IMG/VR virus record: IMGVR_UViG_3300020034_000057
Coordinates: 1-29,693 of that record
Length of the DNA: 29,693 nt
DNA from: a virus
Direction: 5' to 3' (one strand)
A model generated the notes under the pieces. That model saw nothing but the letters and a program-made list of their open reading frames with translations, did no database searches and was not told the origin of the DNA. Numbering within the stretch: position 1 is the stretch's first letter; every line of letters starts with the position of its first letter. This document shows positions 6,324-9,115 of the stretch, piece after piece. Position numbers and translations under genes: made by a program.

Positions 6324-8450
6324 ATGAGAGAGTTCAATAAAAAAATTCAAGAAAAGTTTAATGAAATATGTAAATCAGGTAGATTATTTAAAGTATTATT
6401 AACAGGTCATGAAATATGGGAATTATATTTAAAATCATTCTCTAAAGAGGATGATCCTATATTTCGTGACCCTAATAGTAGTGTTCATAACTGTAATAAC
6501 TGTAATAATTTCATTCGTAGATATGGTAACATAGTATCAATAGATAGTAATTATAATATTACTACTATGTTTGATGTATCTATAGATGATGAATATGAGA
6601 ATACAGTAAAGCTCCTATCTACAGCAATAAAGAATTCTAAAATTAGTGAAGTATTCTTTGAAACATTTACTGAACTTAATGCATTACCTTATGAATCATG
6701 CACTAAACACAATGAAAAGTTTCAATTAGGTTTAGCAGTAAATACAAAACGCTATACTAAAGAGGAAGCAGAAAAATATGGTGTCGTTAAGCCAGATGAA
6801 ATAAGAAAGTTTGATCATATCCACTTATTCTTAAATAAAGAATTTGTGGATATGTCTGGTAAATCAATTGAATCTATAATGGGAGAGTTTAGAGATGCTA
6901 AGAATGTATTCCAAAGAGCAATGGAAACTATATCATTAGATACTCTTAATCTTGTTAAAGATTTGATTAATCAAGGTTCTTTGTTAGATGGTGCCACACA
7001 TTTATATAAGATAGAACAAATAATCCCTCTAAAGAAAGAATACGATGGGATTGGTATTAATAGATTAGATAATTGGTGTTGGATTAAATCATATAAGCTT
7101 CCATTTGCTAAGTTTAGAAATGAACTTATAGGTGTATTGTGTGCTGAGTTATCAGAAGGTGAAGAACTCAATAAGGCTGTGCAGTCTTGGAATAAAAGAG
7201 TTGATCCTGCTAATTATATGAAAGCAGTTGCACCTATTACCAGAAAGCAGATAGAAGATGCTAAACAATTTGTTGAAGAAAATGGATATACAGAATCATT
7301 TAGCAGAAGATTTGCAACTATAGATGATATTAAAGTATCAGAAATATTGCATTCTAATGTAGGTGAAGGTAAAATTAAATCTGTATCTATATTTGATGGA
7401 GTTAAATCAACTTCAACAAGGCATAAAAGAAGTGAGTTTGAAGGAGTGGAAGAAGTTACTATTGATAAGTTTATGAAGGATATTCTACCATCATGCTCAT
7501 CAGTAGAAGCATTCTTAGCTAATACACACGATGGAAACTTAGTATCATTGACTACATCTACTGAGAATGGTAAAGCAAAGCCAATCTTTAAGTGGAATAA
7601 CTCTTATTCATGGACATTTAATGGCAATTTAGCTGGTAAATCACAGATTAAAGAAGCTGTTAAGTCACAAGGAGGTAAAGTTGATGGTGTATTGAGGTTC
7701 AGTATTATGTGGGCTGAAGATGCTATTGATAATTCTGATCTTGATGCACATTGTGTAGAGCCTAAAGGTGGTAGACATATCTATTTTGGTGATAAAGTCT
7801 CTACAACAGGAGGTAATTTAGATATTGATATTACTCAACCACAGAATCATAAAGTACAAACAAAGAGGGAAGTAGTAGAAAATATTACTTATCCTTCTAT
7901 TAATAGAATGCTTAATGGTACATATCAATTTCATGTTCATCAGTTTGCATCAAGGAACTCTAAAGGTTTTAAAGCTGAGATAGAGTTTAATGGTGAAATA
8001 TACTATTATGAATATAACAGACCAGTAGTAGATAATATAGGAGTAGCTCTTGTAACTCTAAAAGATGGTATATTTACTATTCAACATGCACTACCTGAAT
8101 CAGCAATCACTACTAAAGAAGTATATGGTCTTGAAACAAATCAGTTTCATAAAGTAAATCTTATATGTCTATCTCCAAATCATTGGGGAGAAAACAATGT
8201 AGGAAATAAGCATTATTTATTTATGCTTGATAGTTGTAAATCACCTGTATCTATAAGAAGTTTTCATAATGAGAATCTATTACCTGAATTAGCAGCACAT
8301 AGAAAAGTGTTGGAGGTATTAGGTACAACTAACATGATTGAATCAACAAATAAACAGTTGTCAGGATTAGGATTCAACGCAACAGTTAGAGATGAATTGA
8401 TTGTAAGGTTACAAGGTACTCATAAAAGAGTAGTAAAGATTAAATTTTAA
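6324..8450 (+). CDS. Large conserved phage protein with YfaP/DUF2135-like domain
   Basis: This 708-residue protein has at least two parts. Residues 1-330 are mostly helical, with a Cys/Asn-rich motif HNCNNCNNFIRRYGN near residue 55. Residues about 455-563 form a beta-rich domain resembling YfaP/DUF2135: LRFSIMWAED, then NSDLDAHCVEPKGG with a D-x-D-like acidic site, 'GGNLDIDI', and 'GTYQFHVHQF'. Such domains occur with von Willebrand/TerY-type and surface proteins and may bind a metal. It has no signal peptide, so it is probably cytoplasmic or virion-associated. Similar long proteins occur in large Bacteroides phages without a known role. It is the longest reading frame in the first third of the window and directly precedes the tRNA locus. 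Confidence 0.8.
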   Translation: MREFNKKIQEKFNEICKSGRLFKVLLTGHEIWELYLKSFSKEDDPIFRDPNSSVHNCNNCNNFIRRYGNIVSIDSNYNITTMFDVSIDDEYENTVKLLSTAIKNSKISEVFFETFTELNALPYESCTKHNEKFQLGLAVNTKRYTKEEAEKYGVVKPDEIRKFDHIHLFLNKEFVDMSGKSIESIMGEFRDAKNVFQRAMETISLDTLNLVKDLINQGSLLDGATHLYKIEQIIPLKKEYDGIGINRLDNWCWIKSYKLPFAKFRNELIGVLCAELSEGEELNKAVQSWNKRVDPANYMKAVAPITRKQIEDAKQFVEENGYTESFSRRFATIDDIKVSEILHSNVGEGKIKSVSIFDGVKSTSTRHKRSEFEGVEEVTIDKFMKDILPSCSSVEAFLANTHDGNLVSLTTSTENGKAKPIFKWNNSYSWTFNGNLAGKSQIKEAVKSQGGKVDGVLRFSIMWAEDAIDNSDLDAHCVEPKGGRHIYFGDKVSTTGGNLDIDITQPQNHKVQTKREVVENITYPSINRMLNGTYQFHVHQFASRNSKGFKAEIEFNGEIYYYEYNRPVVDNIGVALVTLKDGIFTIQHALPESAITTKEVYGLETNQFHKVNLICLSPNHWGENNVGNKHYLFMLDSCKSPVSIRSFHNENLLPELAAHRKVLEVLGTTNMIESTNKQLSGLGFNATVRDELIVRLQGTHKRVVKIKF

Positions 8451-8456
8451 AGATTT

Positions 8457-8602
8457 TTGGATGTAGCTCAGTCTGATAGAGCGTAGCACCGAGCCGGTAG
8501 CTTAGGGGTTAAAGCACCTGACTTATAATCAGGAGATCGGAGGTTCAAATCCTTCCCGGCCCAACATTGCTAAGGTCAAAGGTTTAAATCCTTTCATCCA
8601 AA
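8457..8602 (+). tRNA. Interrupted tRNA with a second tRNA inside its anticodon loop
   Basis: The two halves fold as one tRNA. The acceptor stem is TTGGATG (8457-8463)/CATCCAA (8595-8601), the D stem GCTC/GAGC, the anticodon stem TAGCA (8484-8488)/TGCTA (8568-8572), and the T arm AAAGG/CCTTT, with A8602 as discriminator. Between CC (8489-8490) and ACAT (8564-8567), the anticodon loop is filled by the complete tRNA-Ile. Removing the 73-base insert leaves 73 bases with a 6-nt loop, so the anticodon cannot be read. The usual G19-C56 tertiary pair appears as A and T (D-loop AGTCTGATA, T-loop TTTAAAT), an apparent compensating change. It may be a dead gene or a tRNA matured from two halves. Confidence 0.7.
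8491..8563 (+). tRNA. tRNA-Ile (anticodon TAT), nested in another tRNA
   Basis: This is a full cloverleaf: acceptor GAGCCGG/CCGGCCC with one A2-C71 mismatch, D arm GCTT/AAGC, anticodon arm CCTGA-CTTATAA-TCAGG, variable region of five bases, T arm GGAGG-TTCAAAT-CCTTC and discriminator A. Anticodon TAT reads ATA, a codon very frequent in these AT-rich genes and usually minor in the host, which explains why a phage would carry it. The 3' CCA is not encoded. It sits exactly within the anticodon loop of the tRNA at 8457-8602. Confidence 0.88.
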
Positions 8603-8627: not shown

Positions 8628-8702
8628 TTGAATGTAGCTCAATCCGGTAGAGCACCGCTCGGTAAATAGCGGGGGTTAGAGGTTCAAATCCTTTCATTCA
8701 AA
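8628..8702 (+). tRNA. tRNA with abnormal 8-nt anticodon loop
   Basis: The fold is clear: acceptor TTGAATG/CATTCAA, D stem GCTC/GAGC, anticodon stem CCGCT/AGCGG, T arm AGAGG-TTCAAAT-CCTTT, discriminator A8702. The anticodon loop is CGGTAAAT, eight bases instead of seven, with no T in the expected position 33. GGT (Thr) is the most readable anticodon, but I do not assign identity. Acceptor and D arms are close to those of the interrupted tRNA, so the two are probably duplicates. A damaged gene or a frameshift-type tRNA are both possible. Confidence 0.75.
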
Positions 8703-8743
8703 CTAAAACATTATCAACAATTAAAACTTAAAACTCAAAAACA

Positions 8744-9115
8744 ATGGAAAACTTTAAATTAGCAAGTCAACAAAAACTAAGATTTCAAACTAATAGAGGT
8801 TTGTTATCAACAGAACAACTATGGGATTTATCTCTAGAAGATCTAGATGTTCTAGCGGTATCATTAGAAGCACAACATAAGGAATCAGGAAAGAAATCTT
8901 TTATAGTTAAAACATCTGCAAAAGATAAAACAGCAAAGCTAAGATTTGATCTAGTATTAGATGTTCTTAATACTAAAATAGCTGAGAATGAAGCTGCTGC
9001 TGAAGCAAGGGATATTAAAGAACATAACAAGAAGATCATTACTCTTATTGCAGAGAAAGAAGATGAATCTTTGAAAGGTAAATCAATTAAGCAATTAGAA
9101 GCTATGTTAAAGTAG
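8744..9115 (+). CDS. 123-aa conserved phage protein, charged and helical
   Basis: The ATG follows an AAAACTTAAAACTCAAAAAC leader after the tRNAs. The N-terminus (KLRFQTNRG, then LSTEQLWDLSLEDLDVLA) and the C-terminal helix (EKEDESLKGKSIKQLEAMLK) are the pattern of a small protein family widespread in phages of many hosts and of unknown function. It is almost entirely helical and highly charged. Its position with its own leader suggests strong expression together with the gene at 9213. Stop is TAG. Confidence 0.8.
   Translation: MENFKLASQQKLRFQTNRGLLSTEQLWDLSLEDLDVLAVSLEAQHKESGKKSFIVKTSAKDKTAKLRFDLVLDVLNTKIAENEAAAEARDIKEHNKKIITLIAEKEDESLKGKSIKQLEAMLK

Follow-up and report, generated by a model that had tools for sequence, protein, structure and literature searches.

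In archaea and eukaryotes, tRNA introns usually lie at position 37/38 within a bulge-helix-bulge motif and are removed by a splicing endonuclease and a ligase. Group I introns occur in bacterial tRNA anticodon loops, and in the engineered tRNA scaffold for recombinant RNA, the anticodon loop receives a foreign RNA, which the fold of the host tRNA then carries. We know of no protein-based splicing of nested tRNAs in bacteria. The closest described case comes from the Lak megaphages of Prevotella, whose tRNA introns were called 'enigmatic' and in one of which, within a tRNA-Thr(TGT), the intron 'itself may encode a tRNA', shifted by one nucleotide relative to the intron as predicted; the description was based on metagenomes, with no phage in culture (Devoto et al. 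2019, PMC6784885). The literature that we searched, which was thin on subscription journals and bioRxiv, held no other precedent.

The stretch of DNA analysed here (the window) is a 29,693-base IMG/VR virus record in which an outer tRNA fold at 8457–8602 holds a whole tRNA-Ile at 8491–8563 in its anticodon loop, both on the plus strand. The inner gene was detected by ARAGORN and by Rfam RF00005; it satisfies the cloverleaf at model score (70.2 bits), carries the Ile anticodon TAT, which reads AUA, and has no encoded CCA. The outer tRNA consists of a 5′ half at 8457–8490 (acceptor strand 8457–8463, D arm 8466–8482, 5′ strand of the anticodon stem 8484–8488 and loop bases CC at 8489–8490) and a 3′ half at 8564–8602 (loop bases ACAT at 8564–8567, 3′ strand of the anticodon stem 8568–8572, variable region AGGTC at 8573–8577, T arm 8578–8594, acceptor strand 8595–8601 and discriminator A at 8602). 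A first-pass annotation, made from the sequence of the window, had reported this nesting together with perfect pairing of the outer stems, and both observations held: TTGGATG pairs with CATCCAA in the acceptor (7/7), GCTC with GAGC in the D stem (4/4), TAGCA with TGCTA in the anticodon stem (5/5) and AAAGG with CCTTT in the T stem (5/5). The A–T pair that it had noticed at the outer 19–56 contact, where G–C is usual, is also present (A19 at 8476, T56 at 8585). Its statement that both tRNAs fold well needs one amendment, in that both folds are real but the inner acceptor contains a single A–C mismatch, at pair 2–71.

In the ARAGORN check that had been proposed, default and intron modes missed the outer gene on the intact locus. 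Once 8491–8563 had been removed in silico, ARAGORN -ps returned the outer gene as a 74-nt tRNA with a 6-nt anticodon loop. When the inner tRNA was held fixed and both flanks were dinucleotide-shuffled, the observed outer score of 33.5 was matched in 0 of 3,000 shuffles, and any outer tRNA at all appeared in two; the nested arrangement therefore far exceeds chance. In silico, the minimum-energy fold is a cloverleaf for the spliced outer tRNA and likewise for its two nicked halves. The double cloverleaf, at −39.4 kcal/mol, lies 0.7 kcal/mol above the minimum (−40.1 kcal/mol) and so is not the predicted minimum-energy fold. With its acceptor, D, anticodon and T stems intact, the outer tRNA departs from a standard tRNA in its anticodon loop: excision would leave CC/ACAT (the slash marks the joint), which is 6 nt rather than 7 nt long and has no U33, a feature that the first-pass annotation had missed. 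Shifted stems or splice sites that might restore U33 were tried by hand and rejected, T being absent at the required loop position. AUA is the most frequent Ile codon across 12 ORFs of the window (193 of 358), and a tRNA-Ile(UAU) is therefore useful cargo.

The replication genes of the window match the DNA polymerase A, DNA ligase, DnaB and uracil-DNA glycosylase families, and its nearest annotated isolates are the Cellulophaga phages phi17:2 and phi4:1. Scanning IMG/VR with a D-arm/D-arm pattern led to a 145,865-base record, which is phi4:1, and to a homologous nest whose stretch is 100% identical by BLAST across all seven phi4:1 and phi17:2 records. Both complete genomes carry this nest annotated solely as tRNA-Ile (in phi4:1, the GenBank entry is the inner gene alone, at 143233–143305), and the outer gene is overlooked by standard annotation in the window and in phi4:1 alike. 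The end of the 5′ exon, GAGCGTAGCACC, is identical in the window and phi4:1, and the 3′ exon GCTAAGGTC is also common to the two nests. The nest in the isolates encloses a different inner tRNA, tRNA-Ile(GAT), with an encoded CCA, and its excision from phi4:1 would leave the loop CC/TAAA, again 6 nt without U33. Both nests lie upstream of a phrog_2018 family gene that has no assigned function (8744–9115, plus strand, in the window; gp193 in phi4:1), being adjacent to it in phi4:1 and separated from it by one further tRNA in the window. The phrog_2018 products of the two phages are 35% identical, so the split between them is old.

The outer tRNAs of the window and phi4:1 differ at positions that preserve the fold. 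Acceptor pairs 2–71 and 7–66 and T-stem pairs 1 and 3 are altered on both sides, T-stem pair 2 is changed on one side with pairing retained, and the tertiary 19–56 contact is A–T in the window and G–C in phi4:1. The first-pass annotation had named loss of outer pairing in relatives as the result that would speak against its reading; in phi4:1, 2 of 21 pairs are broken (1–72, T–T; 31–39, A–A), five others are changed with pairing kept and the rest are unchanged. On the evidence of the pair-preserving double changes and the swap at 19–56, the outer fold has been maintained while nested, in agreement with the structural selection that had been suggested. Because the exact nest is represented by two independent lineages, this conservation amounts to a single pairwise comparison. 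Targeted IMG/VR pattern scans for a third homologue of the exact nest gave phi4:1 alone, an initial scan of IMG/VR with the exact outer pattern gave no matches, and a structural scanner found no additional nest among relatives of the genes on either side of the locus. An empty, insert-free site was not found in these relatives; un-nested tRNAs in the same slot of L003 and L005 are similar but are not clear orthologues.

The nest follows a 708-aa gene without assigned function (phrog_1735; 6324–8450, plus strand), which served to find relatives, and is followed by a tRNA-like gene at 8628–8703 (plus strand; ARAGORN 'gtaa'; RF00005, 55.4 bits). The acceptor and T arm of this neighbour are similar to those of the outer tRNA, and its 8-nt anticodon loop, CGGTAAAT, has no U33. 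Unusual loops are also seen in tRNAs near phrog_2018 in relatives (CGCTTAA in L001, CCGATAT in L003, TGTGGT in L004, TTCCATTAT in L005 and ACCATACAA in L237). Odd loops occurred in 4 of 5 un-nested tRNAs lying just upstream of phrog_2018 (those of L003, L005 and L237 and the window neighbour), compared with 8 of 51 elsewhere (Fisher p = 0.006, on a small sample grouped post hoc). Two relatives have, in place of tRNAs, an unusual, possibly structured RNA behind the 708-aa gene (L010, 7118–7570; L016, 7107–7320); the L016 stretch starts with TGGTGTC and finishes with GACACCA, like an acceptor stem enclosing a long insert. ARAGORN also called phage-borne tmRNA genes in two relatives (L011, 8428–8792; L005, 2034–2324). 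The phi4:1 record (L219–L226) has an array of 24 further tRNAs at 87–91 kb; the 12 of these resolved by our own finder all retain U33, unlike the nested outer tRNA, and ARAGORN -ps gave a two-base anticodon, that is, a short loop, for the array tRNA at 90853–90927.

We looked for a wider class of such inserts with pattern scans of IMG/VR followed by the structural scanner, and counted structurally checked cases alone, because a double-T-arm scan had picked up other tRNA irregularities besides true nests. Among the matches listed, at least 25 distinct, well-scoring tRNAs, including that of the window, carry T-arm-bearing inserts in the anticodon loop, and 22 of 25 outer tRNAs among these matches retain Y32–U33. 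U33 was part of none of the search patterns and gives the fair measure; one scan demanded AA before the stem, which biased the AA count. When the insert was taken out at its mature tRNA ends, an exact 7-nt loop remained in seven cases among the matches listed: CTTC/TAA (L123) and CTTCT/AA (L203), both Arg UCU; CTTTT/AA (L145, Lys UUU); CTT/ATAA (L079, Ile UAU); TTT/GTAA (L210) and CTTG/TAA (L192), both Thr UGU; and CTGT/TAA (L099, Asn GUU). The 3′ cut falls immediately after an encoded CCA in five of the seven (L079, L123, L145, L203 and L210). The broader class looks spliced because exact 7-nt loops return with mature tRNA ends. A BLAST search of the L123 nest among phage records gave no match. 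Some of the inserts are full tRNAs and others are acceptor/T-arm minihelices of about 40–52 nt, a form that RNase P can recognize. In cellular genomes (257 Gb), the same pattern gave 17 matches, mostly tandem duplications of 3′ halves, with one clear nest; nests therefore belong mainly to phages, and true debris differs from them in appearance.

Several variants were seen alongside these cases. In one sub-class (L190, L199, L205, L208, L209 and L211), the loop is split as CTNN/NAA and a conserved 5′ module of approximately ACNGNNTGGTTYACNGNAACRAACC precedes the inserted tRNA. Within this module, CRG and CYG covary and GGTT is able to pair with AACC, resembling a small H-type pseudoknot; Rfam returned no family match for it in L205, L208 or L209. 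It may function in cleavage or splicing. In L204, L206, L207, L133 and L184, phage tRNA-Ala(UGC) and tRNA-Asn(GUU) genes contain inserts of 64–92 nt with a T arm and without a full inner cloverleaf, joined at CTTG/CAA or CTGT/TAA. In six cellular cases (L316, L317, L319, L322, L324 and L326), the 3′ half of a tRNA gene is repeated in tandem after the gene, which may be the remnant of an integration site.

The window holds a genuine nested pair of a recurrent class, and we lean towards a reading in which its inner tRNA is released by tRNA maturation and its outer RNA is kept tRNA-shaped, here more likely without a decoding role. The cuts by RNase P and tRNase Z, what then becomes of the outer halves and any joining of these are inferred from the anatomy of the locus. 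RNase P would free the inner 5′ end between 8490 and 8491, tRNase Z or exonuclease trimming would make the 3′ end between 8563 and 8564, and CCA would be added to the released tRNA-Ile afterwards. The outer RNA would then consist of two halves joined through the acceptor and anticodon stems. Since the loop formed on joining would have 6 nt and no U33, the outer RNA of the window and phi4:1 is probably not a normal decoding tRNA; we put more weight on a tRNA-shaped, non-decoding RNA, or on one whose actual junctions are shifted by one base. It might serve as a non-decoding tRNA-like element, acting as a processing signal, a stabilizing scaffold or a decoy.

One possible history, to which we give appreciable but less than even credence, is that a non-decoding tRNA-like element stood upstream of phrog_2018, its fold kept to punctuate mRNA, to protect 3′ ends or to act as a decoy towards anticodon nucleases or enzymes that bind tRNA, and that its free loop later took in the tRNA-Ile. 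The excess of odd loops in this slot favours such a history, but the numbers are small and grouped post hoc, and the canonical loops of other class members would be left unexplained. In true splicing, the inner tRNA would be cut out by RNase P and 3′ processing, and the outer halves would be sealed by a 5′-P/3′-OH RNA ligase to give a decoding tRNA; across the class, the seven exact loops with U33 speak for this. RNase P and tRNase Z leave 3′-OH and 5′-P ends, which are the substrates of such ligases and are unsuited to the end chemistry of RtcB, so a 5′-P/3′-OH ligase would fit the ends expected of outer halves in the class at large. Among 15 records searched, most of which are fragments and nearly all of which carry a nest, four have an Rnl2-type RNA ligase domain (PF09414); a T4-Rnl1 type is present in 1 of 13, and RtcB in none of 13 records that hold nests or related inserts. 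For the window, however, splicing is rather unlikely. The loops of both the window and phi4:1 have the wrong length and no U33, the complete phi4:1 phage genome has no Pfam match for RtcB, Rnl1 or Rnl2, and the window ligase, considered as an RNA ligase, was rejected on its match to DNA ligases. The first-pass suggestion that this outer tRNA could become functional through an RNA ligase is not supported at this locus. Across the class, the canonical 7-nt loops of many members imply resealing of the outer halves. It is conceivable, and we put it forward tentatively, that in several phage lineages a tRNA or acceptor/T-arm minihelix behaves as an anticodon-loop intron of a tRNA and is excised by RNase P and tRNase Z (or at the CCA end), with an RNA ligase rejoining the outer tRNA so that one transcript would yield two tRNAs.

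Recombination of one tRNA gene into another, leaving the outer tRNA as a relic, had been offered as an alternative in the first-pass annotation, and tRNA arrays do recombine, as the many partial tRNA duplications of the cellular scan illustrate. Such an origin is very improbable here. Every outer stem is intact in the window, inspection of the locus revealed no target-site duplication, and cellular debris has a different anatomy, consisting of repeated identical 3′ halves. The nest is also common to phi4:1, where four double pair-preserving changes and the 19–56 swap argue that it is not fresh debris. An assembly or binning artefact might be suspected in a 29.7-kb metagenomic contig, but the homologous nest in the isolate genomes phi4:1 and phi17:2 effectively refutes it.

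Compared with known systems, the window resembles archaeal and eukaryotic bulge-helix-bulge introns in having an anticodon loop interrupted by an insert. It differs in that the insert is itself a tRNA, follows the second loop position (C33) rather than lying at 37/38, and would probably be cut by RNase P and tRNase Z. Other phages, in which removal of the insert at its mature tRNA ends leaves exactly a 7-nt loop, also point to these enzymes as the splicing cutters. Group I introns share insertion into a tRNA anticodon loop, but the 73-nt insert of the window is too small for a group I core, and Rfam recognized tRNAs alone at the locus and no such core. The engineered tRNA scaffold is artificial, whereas the nest is natural and its insert is another tRNA. 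With the Lak introns, the window shares a phage tRNA gene whose anticodon loop holds an insert of tRNA fold, with no known splicing machinery. A canonical 7-nt loop with U33 on removal, which the window and phi4:1 lack, is a trait of the spliced-looking members of the class and was no criterion in the Lak description. The window nest is thus of the same kind as the Lak introns and differs from them in its Cellulophaga-phage-like lineage, insertion after position 33, inner Ile tRNAs and the non-canonical loop left behind. What is new is this other lineage and its cultivated relatives: because the homologous nest is present in phi4:1 and phi17:2, isolate phages of Cellulophaga baltica, the processing of tRNAs inside tRNAs is directly testable.
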